A DNA stretch of 64,000 nucleotides from Calothrix brevissima NIES-22 (lineage in GTDB: Bacteria; Cyanobacteriota; Cyanobacteriia; Cyanobacteriales; Nostocaceae). The stretch covers positions 8,037,366-8,101,365 of the forward strand of contig NZ_AP018207.1 of the NCBI RefSeq assembly GCF_002367995.1, written 5' to 3'. Below are positions 44,620-50,190 of the stretch, one piece after another; position 1 is the stretch's first letter, and each line of letters opens with the position of its first letter. The notes under the pieces are model-generated. The model was not told the DNA's origin and made no database searches. It was given only the letters and a program-made list of their open reading frames with translations. The translations under genes were made by a program, and so were the position numbers.

Positions 44620-44832
44620 TCTCGTTGGCCTCGCGCGTTCACTTGATAGATTTTAGCTGAATAGGCAGTAAACGCTGCAATCTAACTGTAATGTAATACC
44701 TTCGCTCAATTATGATGAAGGCGATTGTAGTTTTGCTGAGTTGGATTTGATGATAATCCACCAGGAAGGTACTGCCCCTTCTGTATCTGTGTTATCAGCA
44801 CAGCGCCTCACTTTTCGGCTTCTGGTGGAAGG

Positions 44833-44915
44833 CGGAAGATGGAGGAATCGAACCCCTAGGTGTTACCCTACCCCGGTTTTCAAGACCGGTTGCCGACCAT
44901 TTAGCGGCATCTTCC
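44833..44915 (-). tRNA. tRNA-Ser(TGA)
   Basis: Acceptor GGAAGAT/ATCTTCC, anticodon loop CTTGAAA on a CCGGT/ACCGG stem, a variable arm of about 15 bases and T-arm AGGGGTTCGATTCCT. It is the last tRNA of the array in the direction of transcription. Confidence 0.9.
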
Positions 44916-44921
44916 ATTTAA

Positions 44922-44997
44922 GGGTATCTGACGGGACTCGAACCCGTTATGACTGGTTCCACAAACCAGCGCCGCGACCGCTTTGGCTTCAGACACC
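44922..44997 (-). tRNA. tRNA-His(GTG)
   Basis: Acceptor GGTGTCT/AGATACC with discriminator C, as expected for histidine; anticodon loop TTGTGGA on a CTGGT/ACCAG stem; T-arm ACGGGTTCGAGTCCCGT. The encoded -1 base is not G. Confidence 0.88.
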
Positions 44998-45001
44998 ACA
45001 G

Positions 45002-45101
45002 TGGAATCAAGGGGATTTGTAGACGCGAAGCGGCTTCCCGAAGGGTACCCCTAACCTTCCGCTTGCAAGGCGGATGCTCTAGCCAATTGAGCTATGACCC
45101 C
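45002..45101 (-). tRNA. tRNA-Ala(TGC) with a 27-bp insertion in the T-loop
   Basis: Acceptor GGGGTCA/TGATTCC includes the G3:U70 wobble that marks alanine, and the loop CTTGCAA gives anticodon TGC. The T-stem AGGGG/CCCCT is intact, but its loop reads T, then 27 bases (minus strand of 45020-45046, beginning ACCCTTCGGG), then CAAAT. Without the repeat the loop would be a normal TTCAAAT. Whether the RNA is functional is unclear. Confidence 0.85.
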
Positions 45102-45108
45102 ATACAGC

Positions 45109-45144
45109 AGGAGTGGTAGGACTCGAACCCCTACAAATCGATTT
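45109..45144 (-). pseudogene. tRNA-Thr(TGT), 3' half, split by a TnpB element
   Basis: The bases give the last two positions of the anticodon loop, the stem ATCGA, T-arm GTAGGGGTTCGAGTCCTAC and acceptor CCACTCC. Joined to the 5' half at 46558-46591 they form a 70-base tRNA with a seven-base loop CTTGTAA. Confidence 0.85.
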
Positions 45145-45180
45145 AGCTAAAACAGCAAGAAGCCTCAAGCCTCACCCGTT

Positions 45181-45202
45181 CACGAAGTGTTCCCGAAGGG
45201 TA
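45181..45202 (-). repeat. Variant of the T-loop repeat in the left end of the TnpB element
   Basis: On the minus strand it reads TACCCTTCGGGAA then CACTTCGTG, matching the repeat found inside the T-loops of three neighbouring tRNA genes apart from a two-base gap. Confidence 0.6.
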
Positions 45203-45344
45203 GGGGAGCGTGAGATGAATTGGGCGTGAGTTGACGACAGTTCTGTGACCAAATTCTTCCGCAGGAAGAACTCTTAGCAGAACATGGAGGAAACGAACAA
45301 ATCTTGTGTTATGCTCTTTTATAGCGAACGTAGTTTACTCTAAT

Positions 45345-46550
45345 ATGTTAAAGGTTGTCAAAGTCAGATTATATCCAGATGCCCAACAACAACAGTCTCT
45401 AGCGCAAGCTTTTGGCTGTTGTCGTTGGCTTTGGAATTATTGCCTGAATTTGATGAACCAAACATACAAGGAAACGGGCAAGGGCTTATCTGGCTACGCA
45501 GTGAAAAAGATAATCCCACAGTTGAAGAAAGAGTATGAATGGTTAACTTCGACCTATTCACAATGTTTGCAGCAAGTCTGCTTAAATTTGGGTGTAGCTT
45601 TCAATAATTTCTTTGAAAAACGAGCTAAATATCCTAGATTCAAATCAAAGCATGGTAAGCAGTCAATACAATATCCCCAAAACGTCAAGGTTGCTGATAA
45701 TTATTTAAGTCTGCCCAAGATAGGCGACGTATCAGCAATAATTCATAGATCTGTCGAGGGGAAAGTCAAAACTGTAACCATATCTAAAAATTGTTCCAAT
45801 CAATACTTTGCAGCTATTCTGTTTGACGATGGTAAAGAAAAACCAGAATCAAACACAGATGGCAAAGCGATAGGCATTGATTTGGGTTTGACCCACTTCG
45901 CCGTTACCAGTGATGGGTCAAAGTTTGAAAATCCCAGAATACTCAACAAGCATGAGAAGAATTTAAAACTTAAACAGCAGCAGCTATCTAGAAAACAAAA
46001 AGGCTCTAACAACCGTGTTAAATCTAGAAAAAAAGTTGCTAGGGTTCATAGAAAAATAACTAGCTGCCGTGAGGATTTTCTACACAAGCTATCTCGTAGG
46101 ATAGTTAACGAAAACCAAGTTATCGTGCTTGAAAATCTTAATGTTAAAGGCATGATGCAAAATCATTGTTTGGCTAAGTCTATCGATCAAGTCGGATGGG
46201 GAATGTTTTGCACCATGTTGAAATATAAGGCAGAAATGGGAGGTAAAGTATATCAAGAAGTTGATAGATTTTTCCCCAGTTCAAAAACCTGTCATGTGTG
46301 CTTAAACCAAGTCGGTAGTTTACCGCTAGATGTAAGATTCTGGACTTGCGAACACTGCCATACAAAACATGATCGGGATGTGAACGCAGCTATTAACCTC
46401 AGAGATGAGGGACTACGAATTTTGACCTCTGGAACGGGGGATAAAGCCTGTTGCCCAGATGTAAGTCGAAGTAAGGGAGGACGCAAGAAATCCACTACTG
46501 CGCTTTCTGTTGGACAGGAAGCCTACAGTGACGCTTCGCGTACACTGTAG
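45345..46550 (+). CDS. tnpB: TnpB RNA-guided nuclease
   Basis: The 401-residue protein has the TnpB layout: an N-terminal helical domain (KVRLYPDAQQQQSLAQAFGC), then a RuvC-like nuclease split into AIGIDLGLTHFAV (Asp), VIVLENLNVKGM (Glu) and HDRDVNAAINL (Asp). A zinc finger CHVCLNQ...CEHCH precedes the last motif. All catalytic residues are present, so it should be active. TnpB uses an omega-RNA made from the element's right end to cut DNA next to a short motif. I chose ATG 45345, where family proteins begin. The stop codon lies inside the right-end hairpin. Confidence 0.92.
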   Translation: MLKVVKVRLYPDAQQQQSLAQAFGCCRWLWNYCLNLMNQTYKETGKGLSGYAVKKIIPQLKKEYEWLTSTYSQCLQQVCLNLGVAFNNFFEKRAKYPRFKSKHGKQSIQYPQNVKVADNYLSLPKIGDVSAIIHRSVEGKVKTVTISKNCSNQYFAAILFDDGKEKPESNTDGKAIGIDLGLTHFAVTSDGSKFENPRILNKHEKNLKLKQQQLSRKQKGSNNRVKSRKKVARVHRKITSCREDFLHKLSRRIVNENQVIVLENLNVKGMMQNHCLAKSIDQVGWGMFCTMLKYKAEMGGKVYQEVDRFFPSSKTCHVCLNQVGSLPLDVRFWTCEHCHTKHDRDVNAAINLRDEGLRILTSGTGDKACCPDVSRSKGGRKKSTTALSVGQEAYSDASRTL

Positions 46551-46551
46551 G
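46522..46551 (+). ncRNA. Right-end hairpin, likely 3' part of the TnpB omega-RNA scaffold
   Basis: A perfect CCTACAGTG/CACTGTAGG stem with a 12-base loop overlaps the end of tnpB and stops six bases before the tRNA sequence. In related elements the omega-RNA ends here and the guide is the flanking DNA, which in this case begins ACAAGATCGATGCCC, the tRNA-Thr anticodon arm. Confidence 0.6.
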
Positions 46552-46557
46552 TAGTTC

Positions 46558-46591
46558 ACAAGATCGATGCCCATCCATTAGGCGACACTCC
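46558..46591 (-). pseudogene. tRNA-Thr(TGT), 5' half, split by a TnpB element
   Basis: It reads GGAGTGT, a short D-arm and ATCGATCTTGT, ending within the anticodon at the element boundary. The 3' half is at 45109-45144. An intact tRNA-Thr(TGT) of different sequence lies at 46862-46935. Confidence 0.85.
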
Positions 46592-46601
46592 CATGAATTA
46601 G

Positions 46602-46699
46602 TAGCCCTGACAGGATTTGTAGACGCGGAGCGGCTTCCCGAAGGGTACCTGTAACCCTCTGTTTGTAGGACAGTTGCTCCACCATTGAGTTACAGGGCT
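46602..46699 (-). tRNA. tRNA-Val(TAC)-like with a 27-bp insertion in the T-loop
   Basis: Acceptor AGCCCTG/CAGGGCT, anticodon loop CCTACAA (anticodon TAC, but position 33 is C rather than the nearly universal T) and T-stem ACAGG/CCTGT. The T-loop reads T, the 27-base repeat (46620-46646), then CAAAT. Identity as Val is read from the anticodon only and the gene may be degenerate. Confidence 0.65.
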
Positions 46700-46704
46700 A
46701 CGAG

Positions 46705-46775
46705 AGCGGACGACGAGATTTGAACTCGTATCTGAAGCTTGGCATACTTCGGTGTTGCCCTTACACTACATCCGC
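46705..46775 (-). tRNA. tRNA-Gly(GCC)
   Basis: Acceptor GCGGATG/CGTCCGC, anticodon loop ATGCCAA on GAAGT/GCTTC, T-arm ACGAGTTCAAATCTCGT. Confidence 0.9.
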
Positions 46776-46783
46776 ATTATTGG

Positions 46784-46854
46784 AGCAATCGACGAGAATC
46801 GAACTCGTACCGTGAGTATGGAAGACTCTGATGCTGCCTTTACAGTGCGATCGC
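46784..46854 (-). tRNA. tRNA-Gly(TCC)
   Basis: Acceptor GCGATCG/CGATTGC, which includes most of a HIP1 site; anticodon loop CTTCCAT on AGAGT/ACTC; T-arm ACGAGTTCGATTCTCGT. Confidence 0.9.
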
Positions 46855-46861
46855 ATTCTGG

Positions 46862-46935
46862 AGCTGATGACAGGAGTTGAACCTGTAACCCATCGCTTAC
46901 AAGGCGATTGCTCTGCCACATTGAGCTACACCAGC
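46862..46935 (-). tRNA. tRNA-Thr(TGT)
   Basis: Acceptor GCTGGTG/CATCAGC, anticodon loop CTTGTAA on ATCGC/GCGAT, T-arm ACAGGTTCAACTCCTGT. Its presence makes the split copy at 45109/46591 redundant. Confidence 0.92.
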
Positions 46936-47001
46936 ATTTGTGGATCTGAAAGTAGAAATTGTAGTCGCTCTTTTGGGCGACTATCCACTCTATCTCAGCC
47001 A

Positions 47002-47075
47002 TACCCCTGACTGGATTTGAACCAGCATCTTCCAAATTTTAAGTTTGGCACCTCTTCCAATTGGGTTACAGGGGC
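47002..47075 (-). tRNA. tRNA with Leu anticodon (TAA) but short variable loop
   Basis: Acceptor GCCCCTG/CAGGGGT, anticodon loop CTTAAAA on CCAAA/TTTGG, T-arm GCTGGTTCAAATCCAGT. The variable loop has only five bases, whereas leucine tRNAs normally have a long arm. Charging identity is uncertain. Confidence 0.75.
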
Positions 47076-47084
47076 ATAATTTGG

Positions 47085-47182
47085 TGGGCGCTACAGGAGT
47101 TGTAGACACGAAGTGGCTTCCCGAAGGGTACCTGTGTGAGCCTGATTAAGAGTCAGGAGCATAACCGTTCTGCCAAACGCCC
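47085..47182 (-). tRNA. tRNA-Lys(CTT) with a 27-bp insertion in the T-loop
   Basis: Acceptor GGGCGTT/AGCGCCC, anticodon loop CTCTTAA on CCTGA/TCAGG. The T-stem ACAGG/CCTGT is intact, and its loop reads T, 27 bases (47103-47129), then CAACT. The repeat differs slightly from the other two (GAAGCCACTTC instead of GAAGCCGCTTC) but keeps its hairpin. Confidence 0.85.
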
Positions 47183-47191
47183 TAATTTTGG

Positions 47192-47263
47192 TGGGTCGCC
47201 CAGGGGTTGAACCTGGATAAGTCTACTTAAAAGGTAGCTGCATATCCGCTCTGCCAACGACCC
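47192..47263 (-). tRNA. tRNA-Lys(TTT)
   Basis: Acceptor GGGTCGT/GCGACCC, anticodon loop CTTTTAA on CTAC/GTAG, T-arm CCAGGTTCAACCCCTGG. Its sequence differs from the chromosomal tRNA-Lys at 5627. Confidence 0.92.
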
Positions 47264-47270
47264 AATTTGG

Positions 47271-47348
47271 TACTCCCGACAGGATTTGAACCTGCAACAA
47301 GAAACTCAGCGCTCAACTGAGTGCGTCTACCTATTCCGCCACGGGAGC
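47271..47348 (-). tRNA. tRNA-Leu(GAG)
   Basis: Acceptor GCTCCCG/CGGGAGT, anticodon loop TTGAGCG on CTCAG/CTGAG, a variable region of about 9-10 bases, T-arm GCAGGTTCAAATCCTGT. The 3' end of a broken HNH gene overlaps its first bases. Confidence 0.85.
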
Positions 47349-47737
47349 TTGAATTGAACGTTGTTTAGCCCAGTAACCCCTACAAGGTTTCTCAATCCCA
47401 TAAGTTTTACACCACTTTTCTATCGCTTTATCACTGACACCGAACTCTTTAGCTATTTGAGAAGTTGGTTTGATCCAAATCAATTGTTGAAGTTCCTCTT
47501 TAGAGGGTCATTAATACAAGACCCTTTGTAAAGATAATCACTTGCAGGCTTTTTTTGACCAGTTTTATGTGCGCGTCCACCTTGATTACCTTTGTAGACA
47601 ATATTCATTTGAGCGAGATACGACTCTAAGGTTATAGGTCTACAACGCAGTTGGCTGCAAATAAACGCCTTAGAACGGTGTTCGCTAATCCACTGCCTAA
47701 TTTGGGCTTCTTTGTTTAAAATGTCATCTCTTTTCAT
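47331..47737 (-). pseudogene. Broken HNH homing-endonuclease gene within the tRNA array
   Basis: The first 85 codons from ATG 47737 read an N-terminal domain with ICSQLRCRPITLESYLAQMN and IVYKGNQGGRAHKTG, like the start of phage-type HNH endonucleases. A frameshift near 47500 leads to a second frame reading LIWIKPTSQIAKEFGVSDK and KWCKTYGIEKPCRGYWAK, the typical C-terminal DNA-binding segment. The HNH core between them is deleted, so the enzyme is dead. The second frame ends inside tRNA-Leu(GAG). Family assignment is from memory of such proteins. Confidence 0.75.
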
Positions 47738-47816
47738 TCCTCCGGTTTATAATACACGCTAAAAAATTTAATCTAATGTCTGTCACTAAGCGAAAGCAGT
47801 ACAAACAAAGATTCAG

Positions 47817-47890
47817 TACCCCTGACAGGAGTCGAACCTGCAAAACACTCGGTCTAAACGAGCGACGGTTTCCAATTACGTCACAGGGGC
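47817..47890 (-). tRNA. tRNA with Leu anticodon (TAG) but short variable loop
   Basis: Acceptor GCCCCTG/CAGGGGT, the same as the TAA tRNA at 47002; anticodon loop TTTAGAC on GCTCG/CGAGT; T-arm GCAGGTTCGACTCCTGT. The variable loop has about five bases, unusual for leucine. Confidence 0.75.
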
Positions 47891-47896
47891 AAATGG

Positions 47897-47970
47897 TCGG
47901 GATGGCAGGATTTGAACCTGCAACCTTCAGCTCCCAAAGCTGCCGCGCTACCAAGTTGCGCCACATCCCG
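47897..47970 (-). tRNA. tRNA-Pro(TGG)
   Basis: Acceptor CGGGATG/CATCCCG, the D-arm of proline type (TGGCGCAACTTGGTAGCGC), anticodon loop TTTGGGA on CAGC/GCTG, T-arm GCAGGTTCAAATCCTGC. Confidence 0.95.
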
Positions 47971-47974
47971 TTGG

Positions 47975-48052
47975 TACTCCTGACGGGAGTTGAACCCGTA
48001 CAAATTAGACTGTTTTTGAGACAGCCGCCTCTTCCAATTGGGCTACAGGAGC
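47975..48052 (-). tRNA. tRNA-Leu(CAA)
   Basis: Acceptor GCTCCTG/CAGGAGT, anticodon loop CTCAAAA on GCTGT/ACAGT, a variable region of about 9 bases (short for Leu), T-arm ACGGGTTCAACTCCCGT. Confidence 0.85.
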
Positions 48053-48079
48053 ATAATTTATCTGCATATCAAAGCAGAA

Positions 48080-48154
48080 CTGGGAAGGCAGGAATCGAAC
48101 CTGCGAAATCCTGAGCCAAAATCAGGTGGCTTTGCCAACGTCGCCTACTTCCCA
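48080..48154 (-). tRNA. tRNA-Gln(TTG)
   Basis: Acceptor TGGGAAG/CTTCCCA with weak first pair and discriminator G, typical of glutamine; anticodon loop TTTTGGC on CCTGA/TCAGG; T-arm GCAGGTTCGATTCCTGC. Confidence 0.92.
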
Positions 48155-48162
48155 ATAATTGG

Positions 48163-48236
48163 TTGCCGAGGTTGGGGTCGAACCAACATCTCCGTGATTC
48201 AGAGTCACGGCGACTTTCCAAGTCGTCCACTCGGCA
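48163..48236 (-). tRNA. tRNA-Gln(CTG)
   Basis: Acceptor TGCCGAG/CTCGGCA, anticodon loop CTCTGAA on CGTGA/TCACG, T-arm GTTGGTTCGACCCCAAC. Confidence 0.9.
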
Positions 48237-48241
48237 ATGAA

Positions 48242-48316
<75 letters not shown>

Positions 48317-48324
48317 ATGTGCCA

Positions 48325-48403
48325 GTCCCCCAGGTCAGAATCGAACTGACGACCTCTGGTTTTTCAGACCAGCGCTCTCTACCAAAACTGAGCTACTAGG
48401 GGA
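48325..48403 (-). tRNA. tRNA-Phe(GAA)
   Basis: Acceptor TCCCCTA/TGGGGGA, D-arm AGCTCAGTTTTGGTAGAG, anticodon loop CTGAAAA on CTGGT/ACCAG, T-arm GTCAGTTCGATTCTGAC. The D-loop is one or two bases longer than usual. Confidence 0.88.
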
Positions 48404-48408
48404 TAGAG

Positions 48409-48482
48409 CGAGAACGGAAGGACTTGAACCTTCACTTTTCAGTTTCGTAGACTGATGTGTTATCCAGTTACACTACGTTCTC
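48409..48482 (-). tRNA. tRNA-Arg(ACG)
   Basis: Acceptor GAGAACG/CGTTCTC, anticodon loop CTACGAA on TCAGT/ACTGA, T-arm GAAGGTTCAAGTCCTTC. Confidence 0.92.
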
Positions 48483-48487
48483 AAAGA

Positions 48488-48577
48488 CGGAGAGGACAGG
48501 ATTTGAACCTGCGACGGGCTTTAAAAACCCGTTTCCTCTTAGCAGGAGGACGCTTTGAACCACTCAGCCACCTCTCC
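48488..48577 (-). tRNA. tRNA-Ser(GCT)
   Basis: Class II tRNA: acceptor GGAGAGG/CCTCTCC, anticodon loop CTGCTAA on TCCTC/GAGGA, a long variable arm (ACGGG...CCCGT) and T-arm GCAGGTTCAAATCCTGT. Confidence 0.93.
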
Positions 48578-48583
48578 AATAGA

Positions 48584-48653
48584 CGCGGGAGAAGGAATTG
48601 AACCTTCCTGTACAAGCTTATGAGACTTGTGAGTGACCACTACTCTATCCCGC
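48584..48653 (-). tRNA. tRNA with CAT anticodon (Met, or Ile2 if modified)
   Basis: Acceptor GCGGGAT/CTCCCGC, anticodon loop CTCATAA on CAAGT/GCTTG, T-arm GAAGGTTCAATTCCTTC. It lacks the three stacked G-C pairs of an initiator tRNA. No tRNA with a standard Ile anticodon is present, so this one may serve Met or Ile AUA. Confidence 0.85.
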
Positions 48654-48655
48654 TA

Positions 48656-48736
48656 TGGGTCGGGCTGGAATTGAACCAGCAACGCAAACGCGGCGGTTTT
48701 ACAGACCGTTGCCCACACCAATAGGCGAGCCGACCC
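48656..48736 (-). tRNA. tRNA-Tyr(GTA)
   Basis: Class II tRNA with acceptor GGGTCGG/CCGACCC, anticodon loop CTGTAAA on CGGT/ACCG, a variable arm (CGCG...TGCG) and T-arm GCTGGTTCAATTCCAGC. Confidence 0.93.
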
Positions 48737-48825
48737 ATGTTTGAGTAATTACTTGAGATTTCTGAGTGAAATAAAGGAATGGAGAGACCAGTTTTTCTGC
48801 TCTCTGCCATCCCAACTCAAGTCAG

Positions 48826-48899
48826 CAGTGCCGACGGGAATTGAACCCGCAATCTCCTGCGTGAAAGACAGGTGGCTTTACCAATTTGCCTACGGCACC
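48826..48899 (-). tRNA. tRNA-Glu(TTC)
   Basis: Acceptor GGTGCCG/CGGCACT with discriminator G, anticodon loop CTTTCAC on CCTGT/GCAGG, T-arm GCGGGTTCAATTCCCGT. In cyanobacteria a tRNA-Glu(UUC) also feeds tetrapyrrole synthesis; whether this copy does is unknown. Confidence 0.92.
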
Positions 48900-48959
48900 A
48901 AGGTAAAATTTCTACCACATACAAGTTTGAGAAGCTGTTTTTTCAGCCCCCTGGTTTGG

Positions 48960-49040
48960 TGGAGGCTGTAGGATTTGAACCTACTCTGATTGAGATAATC
49001 AGATGACCAGTTTGTAAGCTTCTGATGTTGGGGCACGTGG
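48960..49040 (-). pseudogene. Degenerate tRNA-like sequence
   Basis: The 3' part has a clear T-arm (GTAGGTTCAAATCCTAC) and acceptor strand AGCCTCC, and a possible long variable arm (CTGAT...ATCAG). I cannot find the matching 5' acceptor strand or a credible anticodon loop. It is probably a decayed class II tRNA gene. Confidence 0.55.
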
Positions 49041-49045
49041 TAGAA

Positions 49046-49116
49046 CGCAGAGACTAGGATTTGAACCTAGACTAAAGGTTTTGGAGACCCTTATGCTGCC
49101 GTTACACTATCCCTGC
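49046..49116 (-). tRNA. tRNA-Trp(CCA)
   Basis: Acceptor GCAGGGA/TCTCTGC with discriminator G, anticodon loop CTCCAAA on AGGGT/ACCTT, T-arm CTAGGTTCAAATCCTAG. Confidence 0.92.
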
Positions 49117-49121
49117 ATTGG

Positions 49122-49193
49122 TCGCAGAGGTGGGAGTTGAACCCACATATCCAAGGGCTAGAGCCGAGTACCTTGCCGTTAGGTTACACTGCA
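49122..49193 (-). tRNA. Amber-suppressor-like tRNA (anticodon CTA)
   Basis: Acceptor TGCAGTG/CTCTGCG with a weak first pair and discriminator A, D-arm ACCTAACGGCAAGGT, anticodon loop CTCTAGC and T-arm GTGGGTTCAACTCCCAC. The anticodon CTA pairs with UAG. The start TG and body resemble the glutamine tRNAs of the array. The anticodon stem has two mismatches (CTCGG/CCTTG), so it could be degenerate. Confidence 0.7.
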
Positions 49194-49201
49194 ACGTTTG
49201 G

Positions 49202-49272
49202 AGTCCAGGGCGAGAATTGAACTCGCACCGTCGGTTTTGCAGACCAATACCCTACCATTAGGCGACCTGGAC
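49202..49272 (-). tRNA. tRNA-Cys(GCA)
   Basis: Acceptor GTCCAGG/CCTGGAC with discriminator T, as expected for cysteine; anticodon loop CTGCAAA on TTGGT/ACCGA; T-arm GCGAGTTCAATTCTCGC. Confidence 0.93.
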
Positions 49273-49280
49273 ATTTTTGG

Positions 49281-49354
49281 AAGCCTCGACGGGAGTTGCA
49301 CCCGCTTCTCTCTGACTGAGAATCAGAGCGACTTTTCTATTCGTCCACAAGGCT
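49281..49354 (-). tRNA. tRNA-Glu(CTC)
   Basis: Acceptor AGCCTTG/CGAGGCT, anticodon loop TTCTCAG on TCTGA/TCAGA. The T-loop is TGCAACT instead of TTC-type, losing the base normally modified to pseudouridine, so function is uncertain. Confidence 0.8.
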
Positions 49355-49360
49355 ACAAGG

Positions 49361-49435
49361 CGGGGATGACGAGACTTGAACTCGCGACTTCCTATTCGAC
49401 AGATAGGCACTCTTAACCGACTGAGTTACACCCCC
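49361..49435 (-). tRNA. tRNA-Asp(GTC)
   Basis: Acceptor GGGGGTG/CATCCCC with discriminator G, anticodon loop CTGTCGA on CCTAT/ATAGG, T-arm GCGAGTTCAAGTCTCGT. It is the first gene of the array in the direction of transcription. Confidence 0.93.
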
Positions 49436-49513: not shown

Positions 49514-49566
49514 CTACATATATACTACATATATACTACAAAGCTGTCAAGGGTATACTACAAATT
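49514..49566 (-). promoter_or_regulatory. Predicted promoter and repeat operator of the tRNA array
   Basis: On the minus strand TTGACA (49550-49545) is followed after 17 bases by TAGTAT (49527-49522), a good sigma-70 promoter about 80-90 bases before tRNA-Asp. GTAGTATA-type units recur at about 49564-49554, 49539-49531, 49528-49520 and 49517-49513, covering the -10 box and spacer, which suggests an operator. Confidence 0.7.
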
Positions 49567-49639: not shown

Positions 49640-50176
49640 TTACTCATTCTCAGTTAGGCGTTGTGCGTTCCAGAACTGTTCGGCAAATGCAACGGCTGGG
49701 TGAATTGGCGCTTTGGGTTTGGTTTTGAGTACCATTCCTGCTTCATGGGGAAGGCGATCGCTTTTTGTCGAGTTACAACGTTCACAAGCTGTAACAACGT
49801 TGTCCCAGGTATGCTGTCCACCTTTGGAACGAGGTATTACATGGTCGAGGGTGAGACGCTTAGTACTACCGCAATATTGACAGCTATGGCTATCACGCTT
49901 GAGGACTTCACGACGATTGACAGGCGGTACTTTCCAATGACGTTCGGGGTTACCTACTGTCAAACGAATGTGTTCGGGAACTTGTAGTACGATGCTAGGC
50001 GATCGCACTTCCCAAAGCGTTGAACTACCAAACTCTAAGGATTCAGCCTGTCCGCTAACTAGCAAGACAATAGCGCGTTTGATATTAATCCTTGCCAATG
50101 GTAGGTAGTTCTTAGAGAACACGACTACCGAGTTTTGTAATACGTTTGCTTTCTGAGTCTGTGGTTGAGGTTCCAT
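49640..50176 (-). CDS. HNH endonuclease family protein
   Basis: This protein of about 178 residues has an N-terminal domain with NYLPLARINIKRAIVLLVSGQAE and a C-terminal HNH motif: CQYCGS, LTLDHVIPRSKGGQHTWDNVVTAC and ERCNSTKSDRLP, giving a paired-cysteine zinc site and catalytic His. The family is conserved in cyanobacterial chromosomes and is usually not a mobile homing enzyme; its role is unknown. ATG 50176 is chosen because GGAG precedes it; a GTG at 50188 is possible. It lies upstream of the tRNA array promoter on the same strand but is not part of it. Confidence 0.85.
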   Translation of the reverse strand: MEPQPQTQKANVLQNSVVVFSKNYLPLARINIKRAIVLLVSGQAESLEFGSSTLWEVRSPSIVLQVPEHIRLTVGNPERHWKVPPVNRREVLKRDSHSCQYCGSTKRLTLDHVIPRSKGGQHTWDNVVTACERCNSTKSDRLPHEAGMVLKTKPKAPIHPAVAFAEQFWNAQRLTENE

Positions 50177-50190
50177 AGGTGAATTCACTC

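Follow-up and report, generated by a model that had tools for sequence, protein, structure and literature searches.

Two-hairpin elements resembling small dispersed repeats occupy the T-loops of tRNA genes in a cyanobacterial tRNA array

Small dispersed repeats (SDRs) of about 21 to 27 nt were reportedly described in Nostoc by Elhai et al. in 2008. Non-canonical archaeal tRNA introns lie inside tRNA arms, and group IIC introns insert at hairpins. According to the accessible part of one report, the repeat SDR5 enters the motif HIP1 (GCGATCGC) between its bases 3 and 4 (PMC4390886). In two further partly accessible sources, REP/REPIN sequences and GTAG palindromes are small hairpin repeats thought to be mobile in trans, and some REP dimers lie within palindromes (PMC3116915, PMC3733652). 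Here we describe a 27-nt element with two hairpins in the T-loops of three tRNA genes of Calothrix brevissima NIES-22, within a long tRNA array on a 64,000-nt stretch of contig NZ_AP018207.1 (positions 8,037,366 to 8,101,365; referred to as the window). This insert belongs to a family of non-coding mobile elements of very small size that occur chiefly in heterocystous cyanobacteria. Compared by description, it is like the SDRs of Nostoc and its relatives, which are also very small, non-coding, dispersed in heterocystous cyanobacteria, and precisely inserted; the SDR-like traits present here are lengths of 20 to 28 nt (42 nt in one nested case), 56 dispersed copies, and both empty and filled sites for three tRNAs. 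It shares insertion in an arm or hairpin with archaeal tRNA introns and group IIC introns but is far shorter and has no known intron structure. We consider it probable, at roughly 64%, that SDR-like very small mobile repeats enter T-N-C sites, favor hairpin tips such as that of the T-arm, and pile up in a supernumerary tRNA array. A full-text literature search, resting on partly accessible sources, returned no report of T-loop inserts in such tRNAs; the earliest key work lay outside its coverage, so that novelty is provisional. The accessible literature likewise yielded no mechanism for the movement of cyanobacterial small dispersed repeats.

A preliminary description of the window had placed one 27-bp repeat at a shared T-loop position of three tRNA genes with intact T-stems, and both points hold. 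A 30-mer spanning the insert matches the window three times, with 0, 1, and 2 mismatches; 100 shuffles gave 0.00 matches on average. Each of the three inserts sits between T54 and C56 on the minus strand, which is the tRNA strand, and leaves the T-stem paired 5/5. Empty-site orthologues, whose absence that description had named as an argument against targeted insertion, exist for all three genes, in Nostoc sp. HK-01 for Ala and Val and in Nostoc C052 for Lys. Alignment with them shows T55 replaced by 27 nt, a net gain of 26 nt, such that TTCAA becomes T, the 27 nt, and then CAA; the empty Lys gene of C052 has TTCGA. Outside the insert the gene bodies are nearly unchanged, and the Ala gene is almost identical to that of HK-01. 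The Rfam tRNA model still covers all three genes (Table 1) and ARAGORN calls none of them, so annotation may miss such genes. Two mini-hairpins had also been proposed for the insert, with a substitution in the Lys copy that preserves most of the fold. The two-hairpin fold stands, but comparison favors CGC-TTC-GCG over GAAG-CCG-CTTC as its second member: the Lys copy has two differences, both at paired positions, and these convert CGC-TTC-GCG to CAC-TTC-GTG and keep the pairing. Folded singly, the three inserted tRNAs gave uninformative z-scores of 0.31, −1.93, and −0.93.

Table 1. Positions of the inserted tRNA genes, their elements, and features of the host array in the window.
Feature	Position	Strand	Remark
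tRNA-Ala(TGC) gene including insert	45002..45101	-	Rfam RF00005, 53.4 bits (cut-off 29)
27-nt two-hairpin element in T-loop of tRNA-Ala(TGC)	45020..45046	-	Empty site in Nostoc HK-01
tRNA-Val(TAC) gene including insert	46602..46699	-	Rfam tRNA model, 39.5 bits (cut-off 29)
27-nt element in T-loop of tRNA-Val(TAC)	46620..46646	-	Empty site in Nostoc HK-01
tRNA-Lys(CTT) gene including insert	47085..47182	-	Rfam tRNA model, 41.6 bits (cut-off 29)
27-nt element in T-loop of tRNA-Lys(CTT), compensatory CAC/GTG difference in hairpin 2	47103..47129	-	Empty site in Nostoc C052
Long tRNA array: 24 ARAGORN genes, the three inserted genes, and one more by Rfam only	44831..49435	-	
Related element TACCCTTCGGGAACACTTCGTGAA in array spacer, flanked by CCCC and CGGG	45179..45202	-	
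Three copies of TGTAGTAT, a TrcR-type site, directly upstream of the array	49522..49562	-	
ORF upstream of the array, HNH-like by eye	49640..50188	-	

The arrangement recurs in other genomes (our own numbers for loci, genomes, and contigs carry the prefixes L, G, and C). A pattern consisting of the element followed by the 3′ side of the T-loop matched 49 of 388 genomes of the host's order, in 29 of 149 genera, and the reversed pattern matched once. Among 79 matches re-examined in fetched stretches, the T-stem was paired 5/5 in 62, 4/5 in 10, and less in 7; 55 became ARAGORN tRNAs once the insert was swapped for one T, and 53 had at least five tRNAs within 3 kb. The 20-nt member of the family alone located 51 stretches in GTDB contigs, and the 76 matches in those stretches, other members included, had T-stems of 5/5 in 54 cases and 4/5 in 19. 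In viral contigs the general pattern gave 82 stretches; none of the 80 examined had a 5/5 stem and one had 4/5, a control that is smaller than it appears, as many matches are copies of one or two sequences. A chance resemblance, an assembly artefact, or a single duplicated event has nothing in its favor beyond the shared sequence of the three window copies; we give it next to no credence, since the shuffle expectation of 0.00 and the recurrence in many genomes, with different elements in different tRNA species, refute it.

What had been taken for a single repeat is a family, although the exact and recurrent T-loop position was recognized correctly. Closable T-loop inserts with a 5/5 stem number 70; they come from 36 loci and represent 45 distinct sequences (here, as in the context, TTC-site, and conservation counts below, L117 and L121, which come from the same plasmids as L042 and L034, were removed beforehand). 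Their common format is T54, then A-HP1-A-HP2-A, then C56, where HP1 and HP2 are the two hairpins. HP1 is mostly CCC/GGG, CTC/GAG, CTCC/GGAG, or CTGC/GCAG, and HP2 is mostly AGC/GCT, CGC/GCG, CAC/GTG, GGC/GCC, GCC/GGC, CGCC/GGCG, or CACC/GGTG. Compensatory stem differences occur in both hairpins across the family; HP1 is imperfect in 5 of the 45 distinct inserts, the nested case among them. Many tRNA species carry inserts (Tyr, Met, Glu, Leu, Gly, Val, Asn, and others), and the strains with inserted array tRNAs include Nostoc PCC 7524, Nostoc TCL26-01, and Calothrix NIES-4101. Glu(TTC) genes that are 93 to 97% identical hold three different inserts in four arrays, and differing members are also found in closely similar Asp (95%), Gly (93%), and Val (93%) tRNAs of related arrays. 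Independent insertion and module exchange both fit this distribution of different members in near-identical tRNAs.

In the 9.26-Mb genome of the host, a 28-mer had 56 copies within 3 mismatches, and the reversed pattern had none. The flanks of 50 of the 56 were read, with three more stretches fetched, and 4 of these 50 copies lie in T-loops, three of them being the window copies and the fourth lying at C5:169932. Most of the others belong to a MITE-like inverted repeat (flanks GTTGGGT and CGTTCCTCAACCCAAC) or to tandem heptamers (flanks TTTGCGCC and TGCGTGAG), and a few have single contexts. The proposed count of T-loop copies versus copies elsewhere therefore detects the T-loop class but shows that other contexts dominate, and a tRNA-only repeat is ruled out. 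The comparison with very small mobile repeats is borne out by the dispersed copies, the empty sites in orthologues, and the recurrence across genomes. Two shorter relatives have 6 and 5 copies in the same genome. One copy of the former lies (by eye) in the T-loop of a tRNA-Lys(TTT) gene of a second array, on contig C5; of the latter, two copies sit inside hairpin 2 of the 27-mer, and another is in the array spacer of the window.

The T-loop appears to be an instance of a wider T-N-C target. A C follows the element in 22 of 30 unique non-T-loop contexts, and elements are found within one another, and in other repeats, with similar junctions of T before and C after: in Nostoc PCC 7524, one lies inside the T-N-C loop of another's HP1. 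A pattern for such HP1 nesting was present in 57 of 192 genomes of the host's family, with 304 matches (table sum) and none for the reversed control; these matches were not checked singly, copies of composites account for many of them, and a few, such as four in G398, may be something other than nested elements. An HP2-nested pattern was present in 17 of 192 genomes, in at least five of which (G058, G361, G387, G431, and G446) the element's own second hairpin was seemingly read as the host. In 16 families of non-T-loop contexts, flank stems measured 3.06 versus 2.37 in shuffled flanks (p 0.003); outside T-loops and nested copies, the hairpin preference is weak. SDR5 has its junction inside HIP1, whereas here the junction is T before and C after the element, with the middle base lost, in T-loops and elsewhere; among the 16 families, no flanks of the HIP1 type (GCG before, ATCGC after) were seen by eye. 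Small hairpin elements and insertion within palindromes are shared with REP/REPIN sequences, but the GTAG of the latter appears here, on the other strand, only for elements ending in CTA before the C and not for those ending in GAA.

Under the reading that we prefer, a trans-acting machinery would insert elements at T-N-C sites. The preferred sites would be hairpin tips, probably on single-stranded DNA, and the T-arm, with five base pairs capped by TTC, would present a natural target. Supernumerary, stress-inducible arrays would then gather elements because the loss of one spare tRNA is cheap. A target rule this sharp, which includes a structure of nearly every tRNA, makes the question of mobility testable with simple reporter hairpins.

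Alternatively, there may be no structural targeting: any suitable T-N-C would be used, and the T-loop copies would be survivors in neutral array DNA. We regard this as unlikely. The arrays are redundant, many copies lie in repeats without a clear hairpin, and the hairpin signal beyond T-arms and nested copies depends on one repeat family, all of which is in keeping with it. However, insertion into a T-loop is not expected to be milder than insertion into a spacer, elements also occur in the T-arms of odd tRNA-like genes that lie outside arrays, and the distribution in plasmid arrays argues for a preference. Seventeen plasmid records are closely similar to parts of the window, two of them (H4 and H5) only in a part with a TnpB-type open reading frame (ORF), and 12 plasmid arrays were fetched, picked by tRNA similarity and not by inserts. 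In these, hairpin-1 motifs gave 19 hits: 15 elements in T-loops, a further one inside a T-loop element, and 3 chance hits to a single hairpin. At least four other T-loop inserts (L038, L040, L041, and L042), visible in the gaps or found by closing, escape these motifs. T-loop TTC makes up 938 of 2,631 TTC/GAA sites (36%) in the detected array tRNAs. Under targeting by TTC only, finding 15 of 15 non-nested elements in T-loops has a probability of about 2e-7, a value that ignores selection, shared ancestry, and two anticodon-loop repeats. A binomial count gave 80 of 84; we rely on the 12 plasmid arrays instead because the larger count comes partly from loci fetched for their T-loop inserts and from our own sorting of 27 "other" hits.

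Several observations weigh against insertion guided by hairpins. Selection and targeting are confounded. Flank pairing outside T-loops had a p value of 0.008 without three contexts that our rule classed as T-arm-like and 0.21 when an 8-bp MITE was also left out. The base 3′ of the element was not C in 8 of the 30 non-T-loop contexts, and the preceding T was imposed by the search pattern. A wrong-position nested pattern matched 0 of 192 genomes, a weak control because the pattern requires a T that the stem lacks. Anticodon loops of the same plasmid arrays hold two further small repeats of other kinds, one in an Asn tRNA (L038; family-like on the opposite strand) and one in an Arg tRNA (L039; a long palindrome), and among loci fetched by pattern one element lies in a spacer (L081) and elements in two tRNAs lie on the opposite strand (L083 and L115). 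Finally, the inserted tRNAs show no apparent decay, their stems being kept. A more specific proposal is that a hairpin-reading machinery recognizes a T-N-C that caps a DNA (or RNA) hairpin and swaps the middle base for a two-hairpin cassette; this is possible but doubtful. We hold equally tentatively that the cassette of this machinery carries its own target, such that T-arms are invaded and nested, module-swapping repeats are built. The weakening of the hairpin signal without the MITE and the T-arm-like contexts lowers our confidence both in this machinery and in the preferred reading.

The host array appears, on its sequence features, to be a member of the TrcR-controlled class of long tRNA arrays (trn operons, or L-arrays): the dense tRNA array, an HNH-like neighbor, and TGTAGTAT near the promoter are all present (Table 1). 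In partly accessible reports, an HNH gene adjoins the Anabaena tRNA array (PMC9938897), and TGTAGTAT at the trn promoter is protected by the repressor TrcR, the array being induced under translational stress (PMC10272220). Of the 12 fetched plasmid arrays, 9 have an annotated HNH endonuclease next to them. In the window, TGTAGTAT has 5 matches against a mean of 1.67 in shuffles, and 3 of the 5 are directly upstream of the array. The T-loop inserts set the present array apart; the accessible parts of the two reports make no mention of them for known L-arrays (PMC10272220, PMC9938897). Ordinary Ala(TGC), Val(TAC), and Lys(CTT) genes exist elsewhere in the same genome, so the inserted array genes are spare. 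The second array, on contig C5, contributes two further T-loop inserts, and genome-wide inserts occur in 5 of ~51 array tRNAs versus 0 of ~45 housekeeping tRNAs (Fisher p 0.058; gene counts approximate). A passing look, which was no systematic census, found no insert in a housekeeping tRNA, the isolated case L118 being an odd tRNA-like gene.

The T-loop contacts the D-loop at the tRNA elbow. With position 55 gone and the contacting loop interrupted by the insert, the elbow should be disturbed, and we consider it most likely that the inserted tRNAs are poor or inactive in translation, though their stems persist. That they are functional, with the insert tolerated or removed from the RNA and kept for translational stress, perhaps together with the co-regulated RNA ligase RtcB, strikes us as quite unlikely, though several results accord with it. 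The Rfam model still fits the inserted genes, and in Anabaena PCC 7120 the trn array and rtcB are both repressed by TrcR, as far as the accessible part of the report shows (PMC10272220). Acceptor stems are 7/7 in 91% of 66 inserted versus 89% of 957 uninserted array tRNAs, a comparison biased by counting only genes that ARAGORN accepts after closing. In close pairs (L107, L108, L109, L113, and L116), inserted tRNAs are 0.95 to 0.99 identical versus means of 0.91 to 0.97 for uninserted ones, but distant pairs are mixed, and inserted tRNAs are sometimes below the uninserted mean (e.g., 0.71 versus 0.84 for L042 and L103). Groups of Tyr, Leu, and Ser tRNAs retain shared inserts in different species; there, however, the insert diverges about as much as the body in Tyr (0.090 versus 0.098) and Leu (0.019 versus 0.027), and the Ser insert is invariant (0.000 versus 0.054), which fits weak constraint, youth, or function. 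Also speaking against function, housekeeping copies are present, and excising the insert alone would leave a loop without position 55. The findings raise the question of what role an array tRNA with two extra T-loop hairpins plays under translational stress.

Other features of the array were noted in passing. Between the Ala and Val genes lies a TnpB-type ORF (45306-46550, plus strand), whose related plasmid copies are annotated as RNA-guided endonuclease TnpB; on either side of it are tRNA-Arg(TCT)-like halves (~45110-45142 and 46562-46595, by eye), and it seems to split such a gene near the anticodon loop. The array tRNA at 49119-49193 has the anticodon CTA and is labelled Pyl by ARAGORN, as are tRNAs in three plasmid arrays (L031, L038, and L042); this tRNA may read amber codons or may carry a wrong label. 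A 467-bp gap (47349-47815) between two tRNA-Leu genes contains a short ORF (47480-47737, minus strand), possibly the remnant of an inserted gene.

A Tyr tRNA of one array (L159) apparently has another small repeat inserted in its D-loop, and several species of array tRNA, in different strains, share an odd T-arm 5′ side (GCTCTTTC or ACTCTTTC) that has ceased to pair (L032, L033, L034, L039, and L159). Isolated tRNA-like genes with normal ends have a conserved ~50-nt module (e.g., catccttgttcaccccttgcctgaaaaggccgacgaatcgagggttatcg) that replaces or precedes the anticodon arm (L110, L111, L192, L193, L195, L201, L209, and L118); they stand in rows in L110 and L111, and some carry a T-loop insert. 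In L110 and L193, similar units near them match Rfam YrlA (Y RNA-like) below the cut-off. Short genes that look like tmRNA in its tRNA-like part only (containing ccaacaaacggacgg) were seen by eye in or near arrays, at L105 (5012, plus strand), at L206 (7434, plus strand), and in the gap before tRNA-Pyl of L038, and some of these also have T-loop inserts.

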